The notes under the pieces: model-generated
The model's database searches: none
What the model was told of the DNA's origin: nothing
What the model saw: the letters and a program-made list of their open reading frames with translations, nothing else
In this document: positions 29,541 through 64,000 of the stretch, piece by piece
How the letters are laid out: each line of letters starts with the position of its first letter
Position numbering within the stretch: position 1 is the first letter of the stretch
Assembly (NCBI RefSeq): GCF_029784155.1
Contig: NC_073693.1
Coordinates: 143,280,853-143,344,852, forward strand
Length of the DNA: 64,000 nucleotides
From: Uranotaenia lowii
Lineage: Eukaryota; Arthropoda; Insecta; Diptera; Culicidae
Reading direction: 5' to 3'
Program-made: the position numbers and the translations under genes

Positions 29541-29639
29541 GTCCTACGTGTTCTGTTTAGAGTGAGCGATGAGAATAAGATAAAATGATATAATCTTAAG
29601 AGATGAGGGATGAGAGATGCAAAATGAGGGTTTAGAGAT

Positions 29640-31543
29640 GAGATATGAGAGTTGGGAGATGAGAGATGAGAGATGGGAGATGAGAGATGAAAGATGAGAG
29701 ATGAGAGATGAGAGATGAGAGATGAGATATGAGGGATGAGAGTTGAGAGATGAGAGATGAGAGATGAGAGATGAGAGATGAGAGATGAGAGATGAGAGAT
29801 GAGAGATGAGAGATGAGAGATGAGAGATGAGAGATGAGAGATGAGAGATGAGAGATGAGAGATGAGAGATGAGAGATGAGAGATGAGAGATGAGAGATGA
29901 GAGATGAGAGATGAGAGATGAGAGATGAGAGATGAGAGATGAGAGATGAGATATGAGAGATGAGAGATGAGAGATGAGAGATGAGAGATGAGAGATGAGA
30001 GACGAGAGATGAGAGATGAGAGATGAGAGATGAGAGATGAGAGATGAGAGATGAGAGATGAGAGATGAGAGATGAGAGATGAGAGATGAGAGATGAGAGA
30101 TGAGAGATGAGAGATGAGAGATGAGAGATGAGAGATGAGAGATGAGAGATGAGAGATGAGAGATGAGCGATGAGAGATGAGAGATGAGAGATGAGAGATG
30201 AGAGATGAGAGATGAGAGATGAGAGATGAGAGATGAGAGATGAGAGATGAGAGATGAGAGATGAGAGATGAGAGATGAGAGATGAGAGATGAGAGATGAG
30301 AGATGAGAGATGAGAGATGAGAGATGAGAGATGAGAGATGAGAGATGAGAGATAAGAGATGAGAGATGAGAGATGAGAGATGAAAGATGAGAGATGAGAG
30401 ATGAGAGATGAGAGATGAGAGATGAGAGATGAGAGATGAGAGATGAGGGATGAGAGATGAGAGATGAGAGATGAGAGATGAGAGATGAGAGATGAGAGAT
30501 GAGAGATGAGAGATGAGAGATGAGAGATGAGAGATGAGAGATGAGAGATGAGAGATGAGAGATGAGAGATGAGAGATGAGAGATGAGAGATGAGAGATGA
30601 GAGATGAGAGATGAGAGATGAGAGATGAGAGATGAGAGATGAGAGATGAGAGATGAGAGATAAGAGATGAGAGATAAGAGATGAGAGATGAGAGATGAAA
30701 GATGAGAGATGGGAGATGAGAGATGAGAAAAGAGAGATGAGAGATGAGAGATGAGAGATGGGAGATGAGAGATGAAAAATGAGAGATGAGAGATGAGAGA
30801 TGAGAGATGAGAGATGAGAGATAAGAGATGAGAGATGAGAGATGAAAGATGAAAGATGAGAGATGAGAGATGAGAGATGAGAGATGAGAGATGAGAGATG
30901 AGAGATGAGAGATGAAAAATGAGAGATGAGAGATGAGAAATGAGAGATGAGAGATGAGAGATGAGAGATGAGAGATGAGAGATGAGAGATGAGAGATAAG
31001 AGATAAGAGATAAGAGATAAGAGATAAGAGATGAGAGATGAGAGATGAAAGATGAGAGATGGGAGATGAGAGATGAGAAAAGAGAGATGAGAGATGAGAG
31101 ATGCAAGATGAGAGATGAGAGATGAGAGATGAGAGATGAGAGATGAGAGATGAGATATGAGAGATGAGAGATGAGAGATGAGAGATGAGAGATGAGAGAT
31201 GAGAGATGAGAGATGAGAGATGAGAGATGAGAGATGAGAGATGAGAGATGAGAGATGAGAGATGAGAGATGAGAGATGAGAGATGAGAGATGAGAGATGA
31301 GAGATGAGAGATGAGAGATGAGAGATGAGAGATGAGAGATGAGAGATGAGAGATGAGAGATGAGAGATGAGAGATGAGAGATGAGAGATGAGAGATGAGA
31401 GATGAGAGATGAGAGATGAGAGATGAGAGATGAGAGATGAGAGATGAGAGATGAGAGATGAGAGTTGAGAGATGAGAGATGAGAGATGAGAGATGAGAGA
31501 TGAGAGATGAGAGATGAGAGATGAGAGATGAGAGATGAGAGAT
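29640..31543. repeat. Heptanucleotide satellite (GAGAGAT)n, about 270 units
   Basis: About 1.9 kb of near-perfect period-7 repeat. Because 21 bases give exactly seven codons, two frames on the minus strand stay open for over 650 codons and encode a SSLISHL peptide repeat. These are translation artefacts of the period. Variant units (GAGATAA, GAAAGAT, GGGAGAT, GAGAAAA) cluster at 30655-31100. The variant-bearing stretch 30671-30752 recurs identically at 31021-31102, exactly 350 bp (50 units) away. Confidence 0.97.
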
Positions 31544-49021: not shown

Positions 49022-50887
49022 TCACGGCATAACTTGACGAACATTATTCCTAAAATTCACTAGGTCCATGGCAACCGTTCTCCAATTCCTCGGGCACCCC
49101 ACGTTCGCCAGATCACGCTCCACTTGGTCTAACCACCTCGCTCGTTGCGCCCCCGCTCGTCTTGTTCCTACCGGATTCGTAGCGAACACCTGTTCAGGCA
49201 TTCTCGCAACATATCCCGCCCAGCGTATCGGGCCAGCTTTCACCACCTTCTGGATACTGGGTTCGCCGTAGAGTCACGCGAGCTCGTGGTTCATCCTTCG
49301 CCTCCACACTCCGTTCTCCTGTACGCCGCCAAAGATGGTTCTTAACACTCGTCGCTCGAATACTCCGAGTGTACGCAGGTCCTCCTCGAGCAATATCCAT
49401 GTCTCGTGCCCGTAGAGAACGAGCGGTCTAATGAGCGTCATATATAGGTTACACTTCGTGTGAGGGCTAAGTCTTCTCGACCGCAGTTGCTTGTGGAGTC
49501 CATAGTAGGCACGACTTCCGCTGATAATTCGCCTCCGAATCTCACGGCTGGTGTCATTGTATGCGGTCACCAGTGAGCCGAGATAGACAAAGTCTTCGAC
49601 TATTTCCAGCTCGTCGCCGTCGATCGTGGCCTTGTTATTATTGGACGAGCGGGTTCGGTCGGTCTCGGATCCGCTGGCCAGCATCCTCTAGGACGTATTA
49701 ATCATCATCCCAATCCTTCCTGCTTCGCGTTTCAGTTTGTGGTAGATGTCTTCCACCGCCGCAGATGATCTGCCGACTATGTCACCGGCAATGTCATCGG
49801 CAAAGCAGATAAGTCGAATAACACTCGTCGAATAACACCTTCTAGCGCCACGTTGAACATCATGCAGGATAGACTATCACCTTGTCAAAGCCCCCTGTGC
49901 GATTCGAATGAACTCGACAATTCACCCGAAATCCGCACACAGCACTGCGTTCCATCCATCGTCGCCTTAATAATACTTTAATCTTAATATACATTTCCTC
50001 GCATTAAATATATTTGTGTTCTCAACATGCTTAAATTTTTTGCTCGCGTTCATTTGTAAATTTTTGCTGCCAGACATGTTGAGAACTGAAGTGTCCATTA
50101 CCAGGGGACTCAGTTGAGTTTTTTGGTGTGGGGGAGTGTGGCGGGCCATTAAAAAAGTTATTAAAAAAATATTTAAAAAAAAAATCAGTCTGATCAGCTT
50201 CCCGGAAAAGCCGTTCTCGTCCATGATTTTCCATAGCTCGTTACGGTCGATCGTGTCGTTGCGGCTTTGAAGTCGATGAATAGATGGTGCGTAGGGACTT
50301 GGTGTTCCCGGCATTTTTGGAGGATTTGCCGTAATGTGAATATCTGGTCCGTCGTTGACCGTCTCTCCACGAAACCGGCCTGATGACTTTCCACGAATCT
50401 GTTTGCTTGTGGCGTTAGGCGGCGGAGTAGTATTCGGGACAGCACTTTGTAGGCGGCATTGAGGACAGTGATTGCTCGGTACTTCTCACAGTCCAATTTG
50501 TCGCCCTTCTTGTATATGGGGCATATTACCCCCTCCTTCCACTCCTCCGGTAGCTGTTCTATGTCCCACATCCGGACTATCAACCGGTGTAGGCAATCGG
50601 CCAACTTGTCCGGGCCCATTTTGATGAGTTCAGCTGCGATGCCATCCTTCCCAGCCGACTTGTTTCTATTCAGCTGGCGAATGGCTTCCTTAACTTCACT
50701 CATCGTTGGGAGTGGCTTCTCTACGTCGTTGGCTACGCCGGCGATGAACCTCCCCCCCCCCGTCTTGATCTCCTGCATGTGCGTCGTTTAGGTGTTCATC
50801 GAAGTGCTGCTTCCACCTTTTGATCACATCACGATTGTCCGTCAGGATGCCTCCGTCCTTATCCCGGCACATTTCGGCTTGCGGCAC
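49022..50887 (-). pseudogene. Reverse transcriptase and C-terminal region of the RTE-like element
   Basis: The linker DGGILTDNRDVIKRWKQHFD precedes the frame from 50778: AIRQLNRNKSAGKDGIAAEL, EEWKEGVICPIYKKGDKLDC, AYKVLSRILLRRL, QAGFVERRSTTDQIF and HHLFIDFKAA (catalytic Asp motif, damaged just after). The RT is interrupted at ENGFSGKLIRL by about 220 bp of foreign sequence. It resumes near 49965 with a frameshifted FADDIAGDIVG. The tail has DGDELEIVEDFVYLGSLVTA, LVLYGHETW, FGGVQENGVWRRRMNHEL and WAGYVARMPEQ. It cannot make a full protein. Confidence 0.85.
49965..50188. mobile_element. About 220-bp insertion inside the RTE-like RT
   Basis: It separates the codons for GKLIRL from the codons that normally follow (ATMDGTQ). 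It contains an internal inverted pair (TTCTCAACATG at 50018; CATGTTGAGAAC at 50076) and an A/T-run at its right side. No known ends identified. Confidence 0.6.
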
Positions 50888-50959
50888 GAAGCCTTTGCGG
50901 GATGCGTTGAGTTTCTGATAGAACTTTCGTGTTTCTTGGGAACGATGCAGCTGCTCCAG

Positions 50960-52110
50960 CTACTCGAGCTCCTCCTCCTCCAGGCGGCGCTTTTTCTCCT
51001 GGAAAATTCGGACTCGCTGCCTCTTCCACTGTCGGTGATTTTCCACATTTCGACGAGTGCCTCTTTGCACTACTGCCGCCCGCGCGGAATTCTCTTCGTC
51101 CATCACCCTCCTACACTCCTCGTCGAACCAGTCGTTCCGTTGAGATCGCTTCACATAACCGATGACGTTCTCCGCAGCACTGTTGATGGTTGTCTTGATG
51201 GTATCCCAACAGTCCTCGAGAGGGGCTTTATCAAGCTCGCCCTCTGCCGGCAGCGCTGCTTCGACCGATTGCGCGTAGTCTGCCGCGACCTCAGGTTGCT
51301 TCAGTCGCGCGATATTTAACCGAGGCAGGCGCCGGTTTCGTGTTTTGTTCACTACGGAGAGTTTTGGGCGCATCTTCACCATCACCAGATAGTGGTCTGA
51401 CTCGATGTTGGCGCCTCGACAGGATCTGACGTCGATGATGTCCGAGAAGTGCCGGCTGTCAATTAAAACGTGGTCGATCTGTGATTGCGTTTGGTACGAT
51501 GATCTCCAGGTGTACTTGTGTGGGAGGCGGTGCTGAAAAAAGGTACTACGTACGGCCATTCGTTTGGAGGCGGCGAAATCGATAAGTCTGAGGCCGTTTT
51601 CGTTGGTCAGCTGGTGCGCGCTGAACCTTCCAATTGTCGGTTTGAATTCCTCCTCCTGGCCGACCTGAGCATTGAAATCCCCGATGACGATCTTGATATC
51701 ATGTTTTGGGCAACGGTCGTATTCACGCTCCAGCTGCGCGTAAAAATCGTTTTTGTTGTCACCGGTACTTCCGAGGTGAGGGCTGTGCACGTTGATGATG
51801 CTAATGTTGAAGAACCGGCCCTTGATTCTCAACCGGCACATTCGTGAGTTGATCGATCATCACCCGTTCACGCGCTTTTGCATCTTTCCCATCACTATAT
51901 AAAAGCTGTTCCAAGCTGGTGTGTGTTGCCGCAGCTCTGGTAGATGGCACGACCATCTGGGTACGTTCGTACCGTGGAGCCCTTCCAGCATACCTCCTGC
52001 AGCGCTACGATGTTGAATTTGCGGCTCTTCAATTCGTTGGAGAGCACGTGGGTACTGCCCACAAAATTTAGAGATCGGCAGTTCCATGTTCCAAGTTTCC
52101 AATCGCTAGT
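50960..52110 (-). pseudogene. APE-type endonuclease domain of the RTE-like element
   Basis: The start reads LGTWNCRSLNFVGSTHVLSN and SRKFNIVALQEVCW (catalytic Glu in LQEV), then a frameshift and two stops near 51870-51900. An intact 293-codon frame follows from 51841. It carries NISIINVHSPHLGSTGDN, KIVIGDFNAQVG (GDFN), YTWRSSYQTQSQIDHVLIDS (SQIDHV) and GANIESDHYLVMV (SDH). These are the residues that bind metal and cleave target DNA. The frame then continues into a coiled, basic linker (KRQRVRIFQEKKRRLEEEEL) before shifting. Confidence 0.85.
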
Positions 52111-52344
52111 CCCTTTTCGTCGCGTGGGTCTTTGCCGATTTCCATCCGAAATTTGTTGTTCGTTGTTCGTTGCTTATGTTTTTTTATAGTCACGGGCTCG
52201 CAAGGCCCGTAGCTAACCCCACTATCTCGCAGGAGGACCGTCGTGTTGTTGCTGTTTTGGGTCCCGAACACCACCAGGACGTTGTTGCACTCCGCACGCC
52301 GCCCCTGACATGGAGAACAGACGCGAACGCGTACAAATGTAGAA

Positions 52345-52435
52345 AACAGTTTTCACAAATTCAAACTATAGACTTAGTTATTGATGATAATGTGCAAAAA
52401 TTTATGGTCAAAGTTACCCCGTTTTACGGTTCATC
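52345..52435. repeat. Dispersed repeat family X, partial copy 3
   Basis: AAACAGTTTTCACAAATTCA, GACTTAGTTATTGATGATAA and GGTCAAAGTTACCCCGTTTT then ACGG match the right ends of the copies at 16860-16945 and 42960-43075. It adjoins the retrotransposon's truncated 5' end, so the element may have inserted in it. Confidence 0.65.
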
Positions 52436-52639
52436 TTAAAAAACATTTAAAATTTTATCAGAATGACTTTTAATGGCAAATAACGGCATGATAGGACGAA
52501 GGCAGAATAAGAATCCATTGTTTGCACAGGGGGACATAGGGATGACAGCGAATGAATTTGTTTCGTCAGAGCATTTTCTAACTTCCGGTCTGGGAAATAA
52601 GAACTACTTTTCTTGAGGAAAACTAAAACCAAAGCATTG

Positions 52640-53069
52640 CATTTTCATTTGTGATGACTATTTTATAGCTAACTTGATGAAAAACACTGGCAGCTCTGCT
52701 AGTGAAATGTGCTTCTTGATCTAAGCTTAGTGGAAATTCGTGATTTTGATAAATTTAACGTGTTGAACTGTTGTTTCGTGACTAGTGGCTGTAGCATGGG
52801 TGTCCTGAAATCGATAATGATTGGAGTTTTTGTGTTTTACGCTGTCCAAGTGTTGAAAAATAGTGATAATTGGGCCTGAAGAAAAAATCTCGTGTTTCAC
52901 TTTCTATCTCGTTCCTCATACTTCATCGCATTGGGTTGCCAAGTTGATTTTTCTCAAGCTTGGAATTCAATAAATGGAAAGCGTTACGAAATTAGTGAAA
53001 AGTGGAACGTAACGCTTTCAAGCGGAAAACGTCAAGTTCTTGCGGCACATTGAAAAAAAAAAAAAAAAG
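52640..53069 (+). repeat. Retroposon-like sequence ending in A16
   Basis: Starts near CTATTTTATAGCTAACTTGA (also at 62143) and ends in a 16-base A-run at 53054-53069. No coding frame recognised, so only the poly(A) supports a retroposed origin. Confidence 0.35.
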
Positions 53070-53842
53070 AACAGAAGAAGAAAATTAAGGTGATGAATGA
53101 GCTGCTGAAAGTGGGATGCAAATGGATGGCGTGTGTCACCTCGGAGTATCCCGATGTTTGCGGATTACCGAAGCTAAGTACATTTTTACTATAAAGAGGC
53201 CTCAAGCCGGCGCAATATCAGAATATTCAATTGATATCATTTACAAGGTTTATTTCCCGGGCTGATTTTTGAGGAATAGGGGTGTACATGTGGTATATGT
53301 TTTTCACATTTTGAAGTTGACCAGATTATGGTACAAAAGATATTTGTGATACTGGTACGATATTTGTTTGAAAGAAAACTATCAACTATTTTTTTCATCA
53401 AAGTTTATTGGGTGACTATTGAGGGATTTTGGGGGTGGTTGCTATTTGGATGGTGAAAAGTAAGGTGGGAGGTGACCGTATACTTTTTTTTTCTCGGGTG
53501 GTTAGCTTTTAGGAAAATTTAGGGATACTCTGATATTTTATTGGTGTGGTTCACTGTTTGTGTATCTATCTTGTTATAGTTACTAAAACCTATCGTAGTT
53601 CCAATTTTTAATTCAGCTTTAATTTAATGAAGCCATATTACAAGATTTTTCTACCACTGAAATGGGATCCAACTAAACTGTAAAACAATTATAAACATTT
53701 ATTTCAGAAAGGATGGAGAAGCTTTACAGCAATGGATTGCATTTGTTAAAGATTTTTAATCATTTTTAAGTTTTCAGGATTTTTGACGGTACACCGGAAT
53801 AATATTACGCTTCCTTTTCATAATTATTAAGTTTATATTTTA
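53070..53842. other. Intron, no gene seen
   Basis: No exon or terminal repeats recognised. Confidence 0.35.
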
Positions 53843-54330
53843 CTAGCTGACCCGGTGTGCTTTGCTACACCTTCCAAAAATAACTGAAATATGTGGTACC
53901 CAGATATTTAACTTTTCATTTATTTGCACAAAATTATAAATTCAATTAAAAAATCATTAAAATGTTTCACTGTCTCTTTGTGTTTCAATCACTTTTTATA
54001 GTTCCACTGAAGGAAGGGATGTTAAATCACCGGAAACATTTCTTGTGCTCGATTATCCTCTCATACTGAATTTGGTTGCATTATTTTTTGTTAGTTGTCG
54101 AGTTATGCTTTAAAACTTGAATCAATGTTCCTCTTCCTACCTATCCCTTACCTGGAAGGAGGGGGATCAAGATCAAACATTCCGTGTATTCAAATACACT
54201 TCCATGCCAAATTCTGTTCCATTTGATCGATTGTATTATTGCAAGATTTTGTTAGATAAGTTCTTGATTTTCGCAAAACAATCGTATGTGAGCTCCCGTC
54301 AGGTGTATGCTATAGTATTGTCATAGAAAT
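53843..54330 (-). mobile_element. Helitron-like element, 3' terminus on the left
   Basis: CTAGCTGACCCGGTGTGCTT at 53843 is the reverse complement of the Helitron end at 23318-23337, with the same small hairpin (GGTGTGCTTTGCTACACC). The body contains the CCATGCCAAATTCTGTTCCA module and a GGAGGGGGA block. The 5' end was not located. Confidence 0.75.
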
Positions 54331-54764
54331 TGTGGCCTGGAGGAGCAGTTGATCCGAAGGGTTCGCACTAGCTAGGATGTAGATGATTTTGAGAAAATAT
54401 CCGATTTTTTTTCTATTACAGCACGAGGAGGTCAGCACTGGGGAGCGGTTGGGATTTGATTGGAGGATGGGGTTGAGGGATCAATGATTTTTGAGAGCTG
54501 GGTTCGGTGGGGTTGCAGTGGCGGGATATTGATGTTAGTGATGAGTAACAGTTTCAGTGAGGGGGTGGGGAGAGATTGAGGAAGTTTGGCTAATGTTGTT
54601 GGTCACTTTTGCTAGAAGTTTCAACTTCCTCGATATAGGCTTCCATGGAGATGAACGTCAGTGCGACTTCTTTGTATGTTTCCATTCAGAGGTTTGCGTT
54701 TGTGTATATGTGAGCGTGGGTTTTTTTTTTTTTTTTGGTGAATTTCACAGCATTCAGCAGGGGG

Positions 54765-55049
54765 ATGGGAGAGCGGGCGGAGGCAAGAGTGGGAGGGAAT
54801 GATATGTGGTATAGAGCCGACAGAAAGCGATTGTGGAAGCGCAGGCGCGAGATTGAATTGTCTGAAACAGACGGCACGGGTGACGAAAAGCGCGCGCATG
54901 AGATGTTAGGGTTACTGGCGCCATGGCAACAGTTTTGGCGGAAAATGAGCAAATCACCGCCTGATCCGTTGGGCTTCTCGAATAGGTCGCCAATACTTTG
55001 GCGGCATTCGTTGGAGTTGGATATCTTGGCGATTTTCTTGAGTTACTAA
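54765..55049 (+). CDS. Possible small basic ORF upstream of the OTU-EN-RT frame
   Basis: An ATG at 54765 opens 94 codons to TAA at 55047-55049. The peptide has a strongly basic first half (YRADRKRLWKRRREIEL) and a hydrophobic end (LELDILAIFLSY). It is in the same frame as the long ORF, separated by about 245 bp with several stops. It could be a short ORF1, a degraded N-terminal extension, or chance in a G-rich leader. No zinc knuckle or RRM of a standard ORF1 protein is visible. Confidence 0.3.
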   Translation: MGERAEARVGGNDMWYRADRKRLWKRRREIELSETDGTGDEKRAHEMLGLLAPWQQFWRKMSKSPPDPLGFSNRSPILWRHSLELDILAIFLSY

Positions 55050-55295
55050 GAAGGAGAAGGTGAAAAAGAAAGAAAGCGGCTGTTTGAGGTTGGAGAAAGT
55101 AAAGTGGAAGTGGAAATATTTTCGGCTGGCAGAAAGGAAAAGCGGAGAGATTTCATTTAAAGTAGTTATTATAAAAATATGTAGTGTTAAGGAGTGATTA
55201 AGCGAAGTCACAGAAGGTGAGACGAAATTTTGGGTAGAAGGAAAGGAGGAAATAACTTCCTGGTAAGTCGCTACTTTGTATTTCACAAATTTTTC

Positions 55296-58200
55296 ATGAC
55301 TGATAATTCCTCTTTAAAACTACAAATCCCTACTAAAATGTATTTTTTTATTAAAACTCGTAAGTTTCAAGATTATTATATGAACCTCGTTCAATTTACT
55401 GAACATACTTTTGTTTTCTCGCTAATTCATCAATTAGCAATATTGGATAATAATATTAACGGAAATATAAACTTGGATGAGAACGGTTTTAGATCAATGC
55501 TATCAGGATTCATCGAGATTAATAAGGAGTACTTTACAGGAAAATGGGGTGGAAGAATAAGGCAGGTTGAAAAGGCGCTGGAACTAGGCTGTAAAGATAT
55601 AGAGTGGGAAATATTAGAAGCAACAGCCGATATCTATGAAGTTAAAATATGCCTAGTCAATAGTATGCAGGAGGTACAAGTGGCCCATCCACGAGTTTAC
55701 AAGGAAGGTAGGGACATTATCATTTACGGAGAAAATATTGAAGGGAATTGGTGCTTTTCAAGCGTACTGGACGTAGCTAAGGACGCAGGACTGTTGATAG
55801 AGCAAAAGGGGGAGCATTTTAAGGAAATATGGAGCTGGGATAGAGTTCTCTTGGTGAGGTATAATGAAACAAAATTAGTAGATGCATTAGAACATCAGCT
55901 TTTTTGGATAGGTATGGAAAGAAGAGAGGTAGATGAGAAGTTAAAGAAAGCGGGACTGGATAGAAAGGGCAAGGCACAGAAAGCAATAAGAATGGACGAT
56001 ATTAAAGAAATTGCGAAGAGGTTAAACGTAGAAATAGTCATTTATAGAGAGGAGGAATTCATAAAGGCGGGTCAGAATCCCAATAACGGAAAAGGGAGAA
56101 TAAAAATTTGGTGGGCAAGGGCTCAAGGGAAGGAGGTGTTTGGAAGTGTGATTGAAGAAGGACGCAGAATAACACCGCTTAGGATAAATGAGGGAAATGA
56201 TAACGGATCGGCCACAAGCAAAGGTACAGTTAAAAAAGGGGAAATATATCTAATTAGGGATCAGAACGCACATAAATTGAAAATAAAAAGGATGGGAATG
56301 GAAGGAAATTGTTTATTAGAAGCGATTTTGGATCAGCTGAACAAAGAAACTGTAAACTATGTCAGCACAATAGAGGAAATACAAAGGCTTAGAAGTGATA
56401 TAGCAGATCATATAGTTGAGAATCAACGGCAGTTTGAACCTTTCCTTATAGAGGCATTGGAGGACAGAGGATTTGAGCGTTTCATTGAATACATTAGAAG
56501 AATGGGGGAATGGTTGGGGCATGAAGCATTGGTCGCAGTATCGGCAATGTTCAACAGGAGGGTAATTGTTCACCAAGAAGATGAACCAGAAATCATTATA
56601 GGGGGAGAGCTAGAGGATCCTATAAGAATACTATATACAGGAGCAGGGCAAAAAAACCACTATGATAGCGTGAGAGAAGTTATCAACGAAAGGAGAAATG
56701 GCTATGAATTAGAGATGATGGTACAAAAGTTCAGAAAAAAGCAGAAGGGCAGAAATCTTAATAAGGAAGGCAGGGAAAGATCAAAACAGGACAACATAGA
56801 AAGAATTCCAGGGGATACAAGCTGTGAAAAAGTTAAGAATAGAAAAGGAAACACAAGTAGGACAGAAGTAACGACATCAGAATCTGGAGAGGATCAAAGC
56901 AGCATGACCAAAGATAATAGGAATAGGGAAAATGCGGTAGAGGTAGAAAAAAGATTAACACAGGAGAAAGTAAACGAAAACGCGGATGGCAAAATAATTC
57001 TAAAAATAGGCTCACTGAATGTAAGAGGATGCACATTGAAGGAAAAGATGGAAACCATAAATGACACGCTTAAATATTATGAGGTGGATATTGCGTTATT
57101 GCAAGAAGTCAATGCGTTAGGAGAACAGATAAAGACAAAAGACTACCAATGGTATATATCAAAGGAAAGCCAAAATAAGATAAGAGGACTTGCTATCTTG
57201 CTGAGAAACAACGGAGGGGTAGAAATAAAAGAGCTTGAGGAACTGAACAAATACGCGTATGCGGCAAAAGTATTTATAAAGGGACACTTCAGGCTAGTTC
57301 TAGTAAATGTACACGCACCCAATAAAAAGGCATACCACTTCTTCGCAAAACTAGGGACAGACATAGCTAAACCAAATTGGAAAGGAAAACTACTAATAAA
57401 GGGGGACTTCAATTCGCAGATAGGTTTGAATCATATACAGGAGGAGGACAAAGAAATAGTGGGAGCCCAGATGATATTTGAAGAAAATAACGAAAATGGA
57501 GAAGATTTTAAAAGCTTCTTACACATAAATAATCTACAGCTAATATCATCAAAGATAGGGAAAAATATACAAGTAACATGGAAGAACGGAAATAGACAAA
57601 GTCAGATTGATCATGTTCTTAAAGAAAGGAAAGGATTAAATTGTAGGATCATCAAAGGATATTGGACACCCATTAAAACAGACCACAAATTAATAATTAC
57701 TGAGATATCACTTAGAAATGAACGCTTAGGAGGAATAGACAAGAAAAAACAAAAAGAAATGGATGCGTCAGCGCTGAAATATGAAGTAATCACAAAAAAA
57801 TACCAAGACAATTTGAAAAACATGAAAAAGAACAGCAAAACTTCTGAAAATGAGAACATTGGAATGAAATATGAAAGAATTAGTGAATATATGAGAAAAG
57901 CCGCAGCAAAAGCTCTTAAAACTAATAAACAACCTTTGACACCGAAAAGAAAGAGAGCGTTGATGAGAGTTAAAGATGCCATAAAAAAGAGTAATAAAAG
58001 ACCAAATGTGGAATCATTCAAACGGTTGATAAAAAACAGGAAGGAAGAATTGCAAATAGCAAATAAGGAACACGAAGAAAAAATAATAAAAGATTTTTAC
58101 AAGAATTTGAACGACTTTAATACAGCAGTAAGAATACAAAAATCATATAAATTTCTGAAAAAATTTTGTGCTAATAGGAAGAGCTCTCCATATATTCCGA

Positions 58201-59843
58201 AGGCGGAATGGAGTAAACTTATTAATTTGGAACTGGCAGAGGAAGTCAAGTTTTGTGAAAGTCATGATACGTGTCCTCTACTAGAACCACCAAGAGAAGA
58301 GGAGATGCGAAGTATTGTTCAGAAATCCTGTAATGGAAAATCAGCTGGACCAGACGGAATAAGAGTAGAATATATAAAATATGCAGACGAAGAAACATGG
58401 AACGAGGTAGTAAGGCTATGGCAGCAAATATGGATAGAAAATATATTCCCAGAAGAATTTGAAAAATCGATACAGATTCCGATTCCGAAGGTAACAAGAC
58501 CTGTAAAAGTGGACGACTATAGACTTATAAGCTTATGTAACGTAATTTACAAACCATATGCTAGATGGATAAGGGACAAATTGATTACATTTGCGGGCAA
58601 GCCAGGATTATATCAGGCAGGTTTCACTGAAGACAGATCCACAGATGATAATATTTTCATAGCAAGGAGAATCCTAGAAGAAAGTTGGAATGCGGGAAGA
58701 CCTATGTATGTAGCTAGTATCGACATTCAAAAAGCCTTCGATCATATAAGACTAAACAAACTAAAGGAAATTTTTGAAGATTTACACGTACCAAGCCTTC
58801 TAATAGATAGAGTACTGCTTTGCATTAAAACAGATAGGATCAGGATAAAATGGCAGGGACAGACTACAGAGGAGGGGGTTCGAGCTTCAGGAGTAAAACA
58901 AGGTTGTCCACTATCACCCTACATTTTTAATTTAGTGATGGACCATGTAATGAAAAGGCTAGCAAGAAACGTTACTGGACTTAAATTGTTGAAGATCGGA
59001 CAAATAGGAATACCTATGATTTTAGCATATGCAGATGATTTGCTAGTAATCACAGATAACAGAAAAGACTTAGAAAAAATTATTAAAGAACTAGAAAAAC
59101 AATTAGAAGTAGTAGGCCTAACCATAAACAATAGAAAAAGTCAAGTGATGATAAGAACTCCTATTAGGAAAGAAACACGAAAGAACAACATAATATTGAA
59201 TGGAAAAGAGTTTGAAGTGAGTGAAAATATCAAATACTTAGGTATAACACTAACGGATACACTAGATAGGCCAGCAACTACAAAAAAAAGATGCACAAAT
59301 ACACTTAAAGCAGCAAAGTCCGTGGTACAATTTTGTAAAAAATTCAATCCATCTTGGGAAATAGGTTTGCTAATATACAAAACAGTTCTACAACCAAGTC
59401 TTCTTTATGGTACCAAAGTAGCTACATTGACCAAGAGAAGTAGGAATCAGATTTCGCGATATGAGAAGATGATAGTCAAAGAAATTTGGGAAACTTGTAG
59501 GGACACAAAGAACAAGGTACTTAACATTAGAAAGGTACTCGGAGGAAAAACGGTGAATAGGAGAGTGAGGATAAATAGAATTAATTATTTTGGTCACATA
59601 AAAAGGAGAGAGCCAAACCATCCACTTAAGCTATCGTTCAAATACAAACTTCCTAGCAAAAAAAGAGGGCGGCCAAGTTACACATGGAGAAGCTCACTAG
59701 AACAGGATTTAACAAAATACCCAGATATGACAGAAGTTGACTGGTCAAATCTAGTAAAGGATAGAGCAAAACTTAAGAAAAAAGTGGAGGAGATCTTCAG
59801 TAGAAGCGGAAGTGAAATATCAGATGGAGAAGAAGAACTTTAA
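55296..59843 (+). CDS. OTU-like protease / APE endonuclease / reverse transcriptase polyprotein
   Basis: About 1515 codons from the first ATG (55296; the frame is open 22 codons further up but without ATG). Residues 30-320 contain two divergent OTU-like modules. Residues 325-465 form a recognisable OTU cysteine-protease domain: MGMEGNCLLEAILDQL (Cys339), WLGHEALVAVSAMFNRRVIV, KNHYDSV (His455). A charged linker follows. The APE endonuclease spans about 570-805: GSLNVRG, ALLQEVN (Glu604), KGDFNSQIG (Asp704/Asn706), SQIDHVL, TDHKL. The RT spans about 1015-1310: KSAGPDGI, VASIDIQKAFD, GVKQGCPLSP, AYADD (Asp1247-1248), GLTINNRKSQ. The C-terminus carries YFGHIKRRE and KKRGRPSYTW, reminiscent of RTE-like elements. 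It would copy its RNA at a nicked target; the OTU role (deubiquitination or self-processing) is unknown. All EN and RT catalytic residues seem present. Confidence 0.92.
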   Translation: MTDNSSLKLQIPTKMYFFIKTRKFQDYYMNLVQFTEHTFVFSLIHQLAILDNNINGNINLDENGFRSMLSGFIEINKEYFTGKWGGRIRQVEKALELGCKDIEWEILEATADIYEVKICLVNSMQEVQVAHPRVYKEGRDIIIYGENIEGNWCFSSVLDVAKDAGLLIEQKGEHFKEIWSWDRVLLVRYNETKLVDALEHQLFWIGMERREVDEKLKKAGLDRKGKAQKAIRMDDIKEIAKRLNVEIVIYREEEFIKAGQNPNNGKGRIKIWWARAQGKEVFGSVIEEGRRITPLRINEGNDNGSATSKGTVKKGEIYLIRDQNAHKLKIKRMGMEGNCLLEAILDQLNKETVNYVSTIEEIQRLRSDIADHIVENQRQFEPFLIEALEDRGFERFIEYIRRMGEWLGHEALVAVSAMFNRRVIVHQEDEPEIIIGGELEDPIRILYTGAGQKNHYDSVREVINERRNGYELEMMVQKFRKKQKGRNLNKEGRERSKQDNIERIPGDTSCEKVKNRKGNTSRTEVTTSESGEDQSSMTKDNRNRENAVEVEKRLTQEKVNENADGKIILKIGSLNVRGCTLKEKMETINDTLKYYEVDIALLQEVNALGEQIKTKDYQWYISKESQNKIRGLAILLRNNGGVEIKELEELNKYAYAAKVFIKGHFRLVLVNVHAPNKKAYHFFAKLGTDIAKPNWKGKLLIKGDFNSQIGLNHIQEEDKEIVGAQMIFEENNENGEDFKSFLHINNLQLISSKIGKNIQVTWKNGNRQSQIDHVLKERKGLNCRIIKGYWTPIKTDHKLIITEISLRNERLGGIDKKKQKEMDASALKYEVITKKYQDNLKNMKKNSKTSENENIGMKYERISEYMRKAAAKALKTNKQPLTPKRKRALMRVKDAIKKSNKRPNVESFKRLIKNRKEELQIANKEHEEKIIKDFYKNLNDFNTAVRIQKSYKFLKKFCANRKSSPYIPKAEWSKLINLELAEEVKFCESHDTCPLLEPPREEEMRSIVQKSCNGKSAGPDGIRVEYIKYADEETWNEVVRLWQQIWIENIFPEEFEKSIQIPIPKVTRPVKVDDYRLISLCNVIYKPYARWIRDKLITFAGKPGLYQAGFTEDRSTDDNIFIARRILEESWNAGRPMYVASIDIQKAFDHIRLNKLKEIFEDLHVPSLLIDRVLLCIKTDRIRIKWQGQTTEEGVRASGVKQGCPLSPYIFNLVMDHVMKRLARNVTGLKLLKIGQIGIPMILAYADDLLVITDNRKDLEKIIKELEKQLEVVGLTINNRKSQVMIRTPIRKETRKNNIILNGKEFEVSENIKYLGITLTDTLDRPATTKKRCTNTLKAAKSVVQFCKKFNPSWEIGLLIYKTVLQPSLLYGTKVATLTKRSRNQISRYEKMIVKEIWETCRDTKNKVLNIRKVLGGKTVNRRVRINRINYFGHIKRREPNHPLKLSFKYKLPSKKRGRPSYTWRSSLEQDLTKYPDMTEVDWSNLVKDRAKLKKKVEEIFSRSGSEISDGEEEL

Positions 59844-59886
59844 TATATGAAAGTACTCAATCGTTAACTCGATGAAGCCTGTATAG

Positions 59887-59943
59887 AATAAAATAAAAAG
59901 TATTTAGAAATGAAACTCAAAATAGAGAAATTAAAAAAAAAAA
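59887..59943 (+). terminator. Polyadenylation signal and A-run of the OTU-EN-RT element
   Basis: GAATAAAATAAA begins 43 bases after the stop codon, and an 11-base A-run ends the element about 40 bases later, consistent with 3' end formation and A-tail integration. Confidence 0.65.
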
Positions 59944-61150
59944 GATGTTTTATTTTTATTCGTTTAATAATATAGTTAATGCGTGAACCTTGATAAAACT
60001 CACAAGGAAAATATTAGTCATGGAAGGTTGGGAAATGGAAAGGGGAAAATCCAAGCGACTGAAGATGAGGTGGGCGAAAAGACAGCAGACCTAGGTGACT
60101 GAATTTTAGAATAAGTCTGTTCTTGCATATCATAGTTACTAACCTTTCTTATTTTTACAGTTTATTTTTATTTTTTATTTTTACAGTTTCAAATCATAAC
60201 CTAAACACACAAACATCTAATAATCAACACTAAAAACAACTGTCACTTTCTAGCAGTGATTGAAATCCTCACCAATTTTCTCATCAGAGGCATTCAAAAT
60301 ACACACTTTGAGGCCTCGCATAGCTATACAGGAGACGATACATATACATTCATTCAAACCTCCCCCCATGAGGAGGATCTGCTCTGAGAGACACTATTCG
60401 TTTGCTGCCCCGAACGAACTCTCTCAACGTTCGGTTGCTACATGATGCATGAAGAAGACGAGGCACACATACTCATTTACGTTGTTGAATTTGAATAACT
60501 CGAATAACTCCAGCCGATAGCTGTCGTTGAGGAGAACATCTTCAACTTCGCCGCAAAGGTTGAGGCAACAACAAAAACAACCGAACTTATTGCATTGCAC
60601 GGCCCGCAACGTATAGTGCAAAGAGGGGGGAGGAAAAAGAAACGAAAAAACTAGCTGTCTGCGTGCGGTTGCTGTGCAATAATAGCAATAGCAGAAAAAC
60701 CTCACGCATTCGATCCAGGCACAAACGAGGAGACTCGGGTTTGCTCTGCCTTTTGAATTCGGTTCCCTCAAGGTTGTAACAGGAGATGAGTGAGAGCCAT
60801 TCGTTTGGTTTTTTGGATTCGCTGCCTCGAATGTATACTGCTCCTTGAAGGCGGGCCATATTGAGAGCGTATGCATCATCGGTTTTGTCATTTTCGCTGC
60901 CTCAAAGCAACCTTTGCTTCCGAGTAAAGCAGTGAGCGAGAGAAGGTTGATCAATTCATGCTCAGCAAAATTCAATCACTGCTTTCTAGGCTAATCTTTC
61001 GCAGTACCATTCACTCCCAACTTACTAGATAGAACGTATTCCTTTACCACATCTTAATTACTTTAGAATTAGTTTTTTTCTTAAATGTATCTTCTCATAA
61101 AAATCCTCTAACTCAATCATAAAAATTCTACTTACATACACAAATGATAT

Positions 61151-61154
<4 letters not shown>
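59944..61154. other. Intron with a GC-richer block at 60270-61000
   Basis: The block carries a 183-aa minus-strand frame (60424-60975) with overlapping frames on the same strand, but no domain, and low-complexity runs (Cys/Phe-rich). It may be promoter or 5' UTR sequence. No exon can be supported. Confidence 0.35.
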
Positions 61155-61215
<61 letters not shown>

Positions 61216-61220
61216 ACACA

Positions 61221-61291
<71 letters not shown>
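61155..61291. repeat. (CA)n microsatellite, about 68 units
   Basis: Nearly pure CA dinucleotide with two CATACA interruptions. ORFs on either strand are repeat artefacts. Confidence 0.98.
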
Positions 61292-61299
61292 CATACAAC

Positions 61300-61302
<3 letters not shown>

Positions 61303-61363
<61 letters not shown>
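61303..61363. repeat. 61-base poly(A) tract
   Basis: Uninterrupted A-run 11 bases after the CA array. It could be a retroposon tail or slippage-expanded homopolymer; its exact length is likely unreliable in an assembly. Confidence 0.95.
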
Positions 61364-61365
<2 letters not shown>

Positions 61366-62660
61366 CTGAAACTATCCCCGAGGCAAGTGAGAGAGAAAGT
61401 TGGCTCAGGTAGGTGAAACAAGGTAAGAGAAAAAAAAAAAAGGAAGATGAAAGAATGAGGACCATCACTGTTGGTGCCGTTATTGATTTCATTTCATACA
61501 TTACTAGGAGCGCAAACTTGAAAACTTGAAAACAATCTATCGATTTCTTACCAAGTATAAAACACACACATACAGAAACACGCATTAAAATTAAAAGCCA
61601 GTAATTTATTACCATTTTATGGTTTTATTGAATAGAGGGATAATGATTTGTAGTAATATAAAAATTGTTTGTTTGTTTTAGATCGGACGGAAAGTGAACA
61701 GGTTATGAAATTAAACAAGGTGGGTCCCAGCTACAGGTAAGCTGAGAGTGTCTAGAGGTAAGACAGGTAAAAAGGTAAGATTATTTTACCATACAAATAT
61801 GTCATTGATTGAATATATTATATAAGAACGTGCAAAAAGTTGCCAGCTGGGCAGGTATCTACACGGATGCGGAATACCTGTCGTAGATTCTTAACTCTAA
61901 ATATGTTATGAATTTTATACGGCTGCGAAACAGTTTGCGCGTTCTACAAGTAAGACATACACATACACGAAACATTTTCATTTCATGTCAGTTCACACGA
62001 AGCCATGGTGTCGGGTATGTGATAATTTGCATTGAAGATTGGCCGAACTAAAAATCTAAAGGATGCAAATTAACGCATACGTTGGCGAAACTGCGGTGAA
62101 TCCGTGCACCCATGGTGGATTATCTACATACATACATACATACTATTTTATAGCTAACTTGATATATTGGCAACACTTCATATATCACTTGGACCAATGC
62201 TTCGCCAGATTGTAAACAATCCTGTGTGGCATTCGCTGGTTAGAGTGACCAATTTTGTTGAGATTCAAGCGAATTATTTACAATTTTTGGCGTTAAAGTA
62301 GGCTCTAGGTCCAGTCGAGGGTCGCTCACTCTATACAGATGAGTTTTGTAAATTGATCTGGACAAAATAAATTTTGCTATGATACTTTTTAGAATAAAGG
62401 AGGGTTGCAATCTTGGTTTTTAGACAGGTAGTTTGAAGAGCATTAGTTGAATATTTTACCTTCAACCATATATGAGTTTGAAAATATTTTTCAATAAATT
62501 CAATGTTTTACTTATTGAAGAAGACAGAAATGTCAAAGCCTTGATTTTGTTAATATCTTTATTGAAGATACTTTCAGCCTTTGGCTGGTTCACTTTTTCA
62601 TAAAATATTTTATTCTGCAAATTTTCTTGGAAATATGCTACATAATTTTAATTTTTTTTT
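61364..62660. other. Intron with small repeat pieces
   Basis: TATTTTATAGCTAACTTGAT at 62143 recurs at 52657. 62268-62312 is the reverse complement of 38878-38928. Repeated AGGTAAG words occur at 61735-61780. No exon recognised. Confidence 0.4.
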
Positions 62661-62755
62661 TCACAAAATTACCATGAACTGTCACAACATCTGCAGATTG
62701 ACATTTAATGTTAATCTGCGGATGTTTTGACAGTGAATGGTGATTTTGTGACAGC
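62661..62755. repeat. 95-bp near-perfect palindrome (foldback)
   Basis: The arm TCACAAAATTACCATGAACT, continuing GTCACAACATCTGCAGATT, is mirrored by AATCTGCGGATGTTTTGACA then GTGAATGGTGATTTTGTGA. The loop is very short. Either a tiny foldback MITE or a hairpin RNA precursor shape. Confidence 0.75.
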
Positions 62756-64000
62756 TAAAAATAATCTTTTGTGATGTTTTCATAGAAAAATAAAATTTAC
62801 TGTTGTTGTATTATTCAACATCATAACATGAAAGTTGATTGTTATCACTTGACTCCTCAGTGTTGAAATTGAAACAATCAGTTTTCCAAGGACCAAGTAT
62901 ACATATTTCTATCAATGCGTAGACTTGACTTTTCGACTCGCTAATGGGGGCAAGTTGGCGCGTTTATGACATAATAATGATTCGTAACTTTAAACCACTT
63001 CCCCGTTTTCCCCTCGCCCGGTGGACTCGTCACGAGTTGCTTTGCTAATGTCGTGTTCGCACGTGCCCTAAGTGGGTGCCTAATTCAGTTAATGGCTAAT
63101 GGATTTTTGTAACGATCGGAAGGCGCGCATAGCCTTATGGCTAAACATTTTGGCACAACATTCCGAAAATTCAACAACTTGATGCTTGGTAGCCATCGAC
63201 GCCCGTGATAATAGAGCTAGAGATGATGAATAAATATTCAAAGCCGAAAAAGCGTTCCACCGGAAGTCAAGTAAATAAGTCCGCGTTTGGAAGGTACAAG
63301 TAAACGGAAATTTCTCAGATCTCTCGGTTGCTGCCGTGTATTTCCTGCCGGAACTGAACCATAAAAGAAATCTATGGCTCCAACAGCAGCAGCTCGTGGG
63401 AGGTTTTAAGCACTGTTAGCTGTATATGGAAAGATCAAGAGTAGAAGCTGGTAAGGGGGGATGACGGTGCTAATGCCAGTGTCGGTCGGTTAAAAATATT
63501 GATTTTCAATTTATTTTCATTACAAAAAAGGATGCCTTCGGCAAGAGGGCGGGAGGTCTTCCACCATCATATTCAGTCGGTCGGTTCGGAAAATTCTGGC
63601 AAAGCATTCCCATAAGTAATCCGGGCACACGTATATGCATGAAAGCGGAGATTTATGCTTGGGACCTACAATGGAAAGTGTGTATTGGTGTGGATGTGTA
63701 TTTATAAAAGGATATACGAGTAGGTATACGTGAAACGGGTTTCGAAAAGTTGAGCTGGTTGAATTAATCGTTCCAATGATTTCGGACAATTTTGGCCAGC
63801 AGCCGGGGCGGCGTACTTTTGAATGGTATTATTGATTCCGGTGCAAATGTCAACCGAGCGATCATTTGGTGCTAATTTTCCAAATTTAGCCTTTCGAAAT
63901 TGATGGCGTGAATGGCATTGTGGTTGACTAGGGTTAATGTTGGCCTGATTGGGCGAAGATTGTGTCGTTGCCAAATGCGTGCTTTCAACTTACGTGTGAT
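62756..64000. other. Intron, no exon recognised
   Basis: Less AT-rich and mostly unique-looking. Minus-strand frames of 89-90 aa at 63520-63974 have no domain. Nothing further can be supported. Confidence 0.35.

Follow-up and report, generated by a model that had tools for sequence, protein, structure and literature searches.

A full-length non-LTR (long terminal repeat) retrotransposon lies at positions 52680–62143 on the forward strand of the window, the whole 64-kb stretch of Uranotaenia lowii DNA analysed here (host assembly G000, 1.08 Gb in 2009 contigs, among them three of chromosome size with 216, 437 and 370 Mb). Its single open reading frame (ORF) joins an OTU domain, and OTU-like sequence upstream of it, to an APE-type endonuclease and a reverse transcriptase (RT). 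The ORF runs uninterrupted for 1537 codons at 55230–59843 (+), within a frame open from 55221 (1540 amino acids stop to stop). No other frame in the window is as long; the runners-up, of 670 and 658 amino acids, both lie within a heptanucleotide satellite. Taking the ATG at 55296 as the start gives 1515 codons, as in the single frame of about that length reported in an earlier note made from the letters alone (the original prediction). Translation is likely to start at ATG 55338, giving 1501 amino acids and a single ORF at 55338–59843 (+), since similarity to a relative in the same genome, L008, begins at that point. Residue numbers given below for this protein count from the 55230 frame (Cys361 is codon 56310 and His477 is codon 56658).

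The OTU domain (56262–56699, +) was matched by Pfam at residues 358–477 (E 8.2e-13; 49.4 bits against a curated cut-off of 23.3) and, in a sequence comparison with the PDB, by OTUD3 at residues 347–486 (E 2.8e-12). Both catalytic residues, Cys361 and His477, are present, the fold was assigned as OTU, and OTUD3 was the nearest solved structure by sequence and by fold. The endonuclease domain (57006–57704, +) was placed by Pfam (Exo_endo_phos_2, residues 692–822, E 2.7e-4, under the family's own cut-off), by PDB sequence match and by alignment, and the RT domain with its YADD motif (58275–59252, +) by Pfam (RVT_1, residues 1086–1341, E 1.8e-38), PDB match, alignment and an RT tree; LINE-1 ORF2p aligned across residues 593–1441. 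No separate ORF1 was present in the element, endonuclease and RT sharing one ORF. The fusion of an OTU domain with an APE-type endonuclease and an RT in a young retrotransposon had been proposed in the original prediction, which left the OTU assignment to a profile search, and both the fusion and the assignment held. Leaving domain B (below) aside, the anatomy of the element is regarded as close to certain.

Two further units were recognized between the start of the protein and the OTU domain. Domain A (55383–55778, +) is an OTU-fold pseudo-domain in which Thr replaces the catalytic Cys and the His is lost; it was identified by profile match and by an AlphaFold model (pLDDT 77, pTM 0.75) assigned to the OTU fold, with OTU structures among its structural matches. 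The model was made from alignment A5, alignment A4 having been rejected for its wrong C-terminal end. A profile of domain A matched the corresponding region of the same-genome relatives C4155, C3430 and L008 at E 5e-12, 8e-12 and 2e-12, where the OTU profile matched weakly (0.21, 0.69 and 5e-4); the OTU profile missed domain A of P0001 (E 0.16) and domain B of P0005 (E 9.3). Domain B (55842–56159, +), a shorter unit without catalytic residues in the interval between A and OTU, is common to the window element, L008, P0003 and C4155. Its own profile matched L008 (E 4e-14) and C4155 (E 9e-10), and the OTU profile matched domain B of P0003 (E 4e-6), of the window element (0.003; best shuffle 0.029) and, weakly, of L008 (0.03), with no match in C4155 or P0005. 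Comparison by hhalign gave 75% or 41% according to the set used, and in a 445-residue model (mean pLDDT 60, pTM 0.39) the B region was of low confidence. From these profiles, domain B is a probable shortened OTU-like unit.

Three relatives in the same genome were read. L008, 53.7% identical across residues 111–944, contains all of A, B and OTU; its A is interrupted by a frameshift. In a second relative (L053+L040) the stop-to-stop frame spans 1494 codons and encodes A and OTU, B being absent. The third (L055+L054+L036) has a single frame that extends for 2000 codons between stops, from about position 415500623 of G000 contig C2, in which A and B are followed by three OTU units and then by endonuclease and RT. 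These three units (residues 333–482, 575–719 and 855–998; profile E 6e-42, 5e-51 and 2e-44) carry the motifs GDC, GNC and GDC, respectively, with NHYDS in all three, so that five OTU-like units, A, B and three with Cys and His, are present in all. The second and third share 67% identity, and the first shares 39 and 38% with them, so that one duplication looks more recent; a tree of the units was poorly resolved (one of ten inner branches starred), and identities alone were used. The sequences indicate that the OTU unit is tandemly duplicated in at least this relative, and the original prediction, correct in naming an OTU, understated the case, as pseudo-domain A precedes the OTU of the window element and a relative has three such units. 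In P0006 and P0008, sequence downstream of the N-terminal OTU resembled additional OTU copies by eye. These are not claimed, since only one of all the matches (P0008 to the B profile) scored above the highest of 500 shuffles, and by a narrow margin (7.4 against 6.7 bits). In the relative with the 2000-codon ORF (G000 C2, from about 415498900), a long simple repeat of AAT/AAC type lies downstream of that ORF.

An RT tree was built from 58 rows chosen from the 138 with an RT profile match, and was rooted at the midpoint. The 11 rows of the family formed one clade with support of 100/100, and an OTU domain was seen in all of them except P0004 (Topomyia yanbarensis). This clade joined, at 95/88, seven rows without OTU: P0009, P0010, P0043, three DUF6451 proteins and a fragment at 50194 in the window, which we take to be RTE-like, the tree holding no named RTE reference. 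The RT phylogeny that the original prediction had called for groups the OTU-bearing rows together, next to RTE-like ones. It suggests that OTU was gained once at the base of the clade and then multiplied, a single gain being the simplest reading. A protein search gave eight close relatives, one or more from Topomyia yanbarensis, retrieved by the endonuclease–RT part alone; with residues 1–590 as query no match at E ≤ 0.001 was obtained among 7989 scored candidates, and a scan of viral contigs found no relative.

Selection was assessed per domain as dN/dS (non-synonymous over synonymous rate) between the window element and L013, with one-sided binomial p-values against neutrality, uncorrected for multiple testing, and rounded counts; L013 is a decayed copy, so some of its changes should be neutral. 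Values were 0.21 for OTU (p 0.008), 0.33 for domain A (p 0.0026), 0.13 for the endonuclease (p 1e-5) and 0.08 for RT (p 9e-10). The charged linker between OTU and endonuclease evolved fast (1.58, p 0.82), and fast evolution was limited to it, with no sign of positive selection in OTU or A. As a single value, dN/dS was 0.25 against L013 and 0.15 against another copy, L012; against L008 synonymous sites were close to saturation.

Together, these observations may be read as a clade that builds a multivalent ubiquitin-editing machine by tandem duplication of OTU within the polymerase ORF, up to five units in 2000 codons, some units keeping Cys and His and others being pseudo-enzymes kept by selection, in which Ser or Thr replaces the Cys. 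The probability of this reading is put at roughly 0.55. If correct, no retroelement was previously known to have amplified a deubiquitinase domain, and no report of arrays with pseudo-OTU units was found among the open-licence PMC papers listed by the searches (Repbase and Dfam lay outside the comparison). Several points weigh against the mechanism proposed below, in which the OTU acts as a deubiquitinase in cis. The best Foldseek match of domain A reached only E 1.0e-3, two of its five AlphaFold models were poor (pLDDT 39 and 38), and Pfam reported no OTU when A and B were submitted on their own. Domain B has moderate profile support only and, taken alone, gave no significant selection (dN/dS 0.51, p 0.15, against L013). 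P0004 has no visible OTU, although its gene model is possibly incomplete. Finally, a shared fold does not by itself prove deubiquitination, so the OTU activity, binding and substrate proposed below are predictions from sequence and structure comparison.

The limits of the element were set by alignment of the copies L009/L016, L010, L011, L012 and L013. The original prediction had placed them at 54430 and 59943, a span that had to be widened, as similarity to the fetched copies (BLAST) extends from 52680 to about 62143; without a later insertion and its 8-bp duplication the element measures about 8.73 kb. Flank comparison identified a 22-bp target site duplication, ACTATTTTATAGCTAACTTGAT, at 52657–52678 (+) and 62142–62163 (+), the first two bases of the 3′ copy being common with the tail. 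Duplications of 22–24 bp were found in five of the six copies read at both ends, and in L012 none was found on searching both ends. The 5′ ends vary: 52680 (window, L011), 52688 (L009), about 54300 (L012), 54992 (L013) and 55696 (L010). The true 3′ end is a (TACA)n microsatellite tail (62125–62143, +) common to nine of ten near-identical copies (window, L009, L010, L011, L012, L013, L026, L028 and L029); the read of the tenth, L031, stops short of it. A poly(A) near 59934 was rejected as the 3′ end, being internal to the 3′ untranslated region (UTR), with copies continuing to the tail. No LTRs were found, the sole significant direct repeat between 52000–54700 and 59844–63000 being the 22-bp target duplication. 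With RT and endonuclease in one ORF, target duplications and 5′ truncation, the element classes as non-LTR (LINE).

The ORF is flanked by a long 5′ UTR (52680–55337, +), in which no ATG-started ORF of at least 100 amino acids was present (longest 94), and by a 3′ UTR (59844–62124, +) of about 1.5 kb without the insertion. At 61155–61364 the latter contains a 136-base (CA)n tract and a stretch of about 60 A. A 32-nt inverted match, 78% complementary and possibly due to chance, links 55504–55535 in the domain A coding region to 59850–59881 at the start of the 3′ UTR. The insertion, 728 bp at 60254–60981 and absent from copies that span the site, has inverted ends CAGTGATTGAA and an 8-bp duplication CTTTCTAG, and is presumably a hAT-like non-autonomous element. 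The description of the element as intact in the original prediction applies to the ORF, which is open, and not to the 3′ UTR that holds this insertion.

A 731-base 3′ piece was found at a minimum of ten genome places at 98% identity or higher, the window included, and at 30 or more further, diverged places (65–77% identity), all of these counts being lower bounds. The complete ORF was read in seven copies and is open in three: the window, L011 and L012. It is interrupted by an insertion and a stop in L009, which forms with L016 (G000 C3:117678421–117698420) a copy divided by a roughly 3.4-kb insertion, a 24-bp overlap lying at window positions 57417–57440; L010 is 5′-truncated and frameshifted, L013 frameshifted and L014 wrecked. 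Four more near-identical copies were read in their 3′ part only, two without a stop (L026, L028), one with a single stop (L029) and one broken (L031). Window and L011 differ by two synonymous and two non-synonymous changes across 1537 codons. These four codon-level changes and the count of near-identical places, which had been suggested as a follow-up, bear out the young age assigned in the original prediction: the element is a young, autonomous non-LTR retrotransposon.

Under the proposed mechanism, one mRNA would yield one protein with pseudo-OTU A, probable pseudo-OTU B, OTU, endonuclease and RT. The endonuclease would nick the target and the RT would prime at the nick. Such target-primed reverse transcription, the established LINE mechanism, is argued for by the 22–24 bp duplications, the variable 5′ truncation, the (TACA)n tail and the RT–endonuclease ORF. 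The OTU domain, as a deubiquitinase, would act in cis: it would trim host-added ubiquitin from the protein or ribonucleoprotein (RNP) of the element itself, so that the complex escapes degradation. Although its chemistry is lost, domain A (perhaps B as well) would be retained to bind ubiquitin or substrate, for grip or chain preference. This cis-acting role on the RNP is given slightly less than an even chance.

The same domain might instead work at the integration site, deubiquitinating histones or repair or replication factors and so, while target-primed reverse transcription proceeds, opening the target or quieting the damage response. OTU is fused to the endonuclease–RT that sits at the nick, and extracts of two papers propose a repair-signalling role for OTU/Ulp1 in Ginger1 transposases (PMC2836005) and a transposition role for Helentron OTUs (PMC4067079); no histone- or PCNA-binding hints were seen in the sequence, in which no search aimed at them was made, and this role is judged unlikely, though the likeliest of the alternatives. 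A polyprotein protease that splits the N-terminal part from the endonuclease–RT, giving ORF1-like and ORF2-like proteins, would suit an element without a separate ORF1 and with a charged linker of dN/dS 1.58, and an extract of PMC5695851 describes an OTU-like enzyme of turnip yellow mosaic virus, PRO/DUB, that is both protease and deubiquitinase. No conserved cleavage site was evident by eye in the aligned linker, though, and RTE too has a single endonuclease–RT ORF, described without OTU in the part of PMC2887409 consulted, which leaves proteolysis improbable. Antagonism of a ubiquitin-dependent host defence against transposons, with the tandem copies as the trace of an arms race, draws on differences in number and state of the units within one genome: A+OTU (L053/L040), A+B+OTU (window, L008) and A+B+three OTU (L055/L054/L036). 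Against this stands the lack of a positive-selection sign in OTU and A, the linker alone being fast, and we consider it quite improbable. That OTU is a functionless hitch-hiker, a captured piece of a host gene kept by inertia, agrees with cellular OTUD3 as nearest solved relative and is very hard to reconcile with Cys and His kept across the clade and purifying selection on OTU.

Elsewhere in the window, a broken element, the RTE-like fragment of the RT tree, lies at 50194–51856 (−), its endonuclease and RT pieces in different frames and its RT grouping with P0009 and P0010. The original prediction had described the neighbours as riddled with stops; for this fragment, the sole neighbour examined, disruption of the frame was seen. 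A satellite of the heptanucleotide AGAGATG (about 278 copies, 95% match) occupies 29599–31543 and is open in three minus-strand frames, repeating SSLISHL.

Among known systems, LINE-1 ORF2p resembles the window element in endonuclease–RT order and in sequence (E 1.8e-29), but LINE-1 is not known to carry an OTU and has a separate ORF1. Cellular OTU deubiquitinases (OTUD3, yeast Otu2) differ in that the OTU of the window element is fused to an endonuclease–RT and is accompanied by a domain A without catalytic residues. RTE elements share a single ORF with an APE-type endonuclease and RT and no separate ORF1, and end in a short tandem repeat where other elements have poly(A); the RT of the window element joins rows taken to be RTE-like (95/88, midpoint root). 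They are described, in the part of PMC2887409 consulted, as having a single endonuclease–RT ORF, an extremely short simple-repeat 3′ UTR and target duplications of 6–12 bp; the window element has long UTRs, the 3′ one of about 1.5 kb, duplications of 22–24 bp, N-terminal OTU units and an RT clade of its own. At 8.7 kb it also exceeds the mollusc means of 3.6 kb for RTE-BovB and 4.9 kb for RTE-X (extract of PMC10294476). Because UTR length and duplication length differ and the RT forms its own clade, the element was not filed as RTE.

No recognized report of OTU in non-LTR elements was found in the part of the open-licence PMC literature that the searches returned. According to the original prediction, OTU has been reported in only a minority of non-LTR lineages. 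An in-text search for OTU was negative in the available text of PMC11203168, PMC10294476 and PMC1947958; in that of PMC2774666 the term denotes a taxonomic unit, and in that of PMC11943222 and PMC11520807 it refers to host genes only. Ginger1 DNA transposons and Helentrons are likewise mobile elements with an OTU domain, but they are DNA transposons with other enzymes. Tandem arrays that include dead copies go unmentioned in the extracts of the papers on them (PMC2836005, PMC4067079), which only guess at the roles of OTU/Ulp1 in mobile elements. OTU in other mobile elements is already known, and comparison within the literature searched suggests that OTU arrays in a retrotransposon may be new. 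The near-identical recent copies, the Cys- and His-bearing OTU, its kept dead twin and the three-OTU relative provide natural variants with which the role of such domains could be tested.
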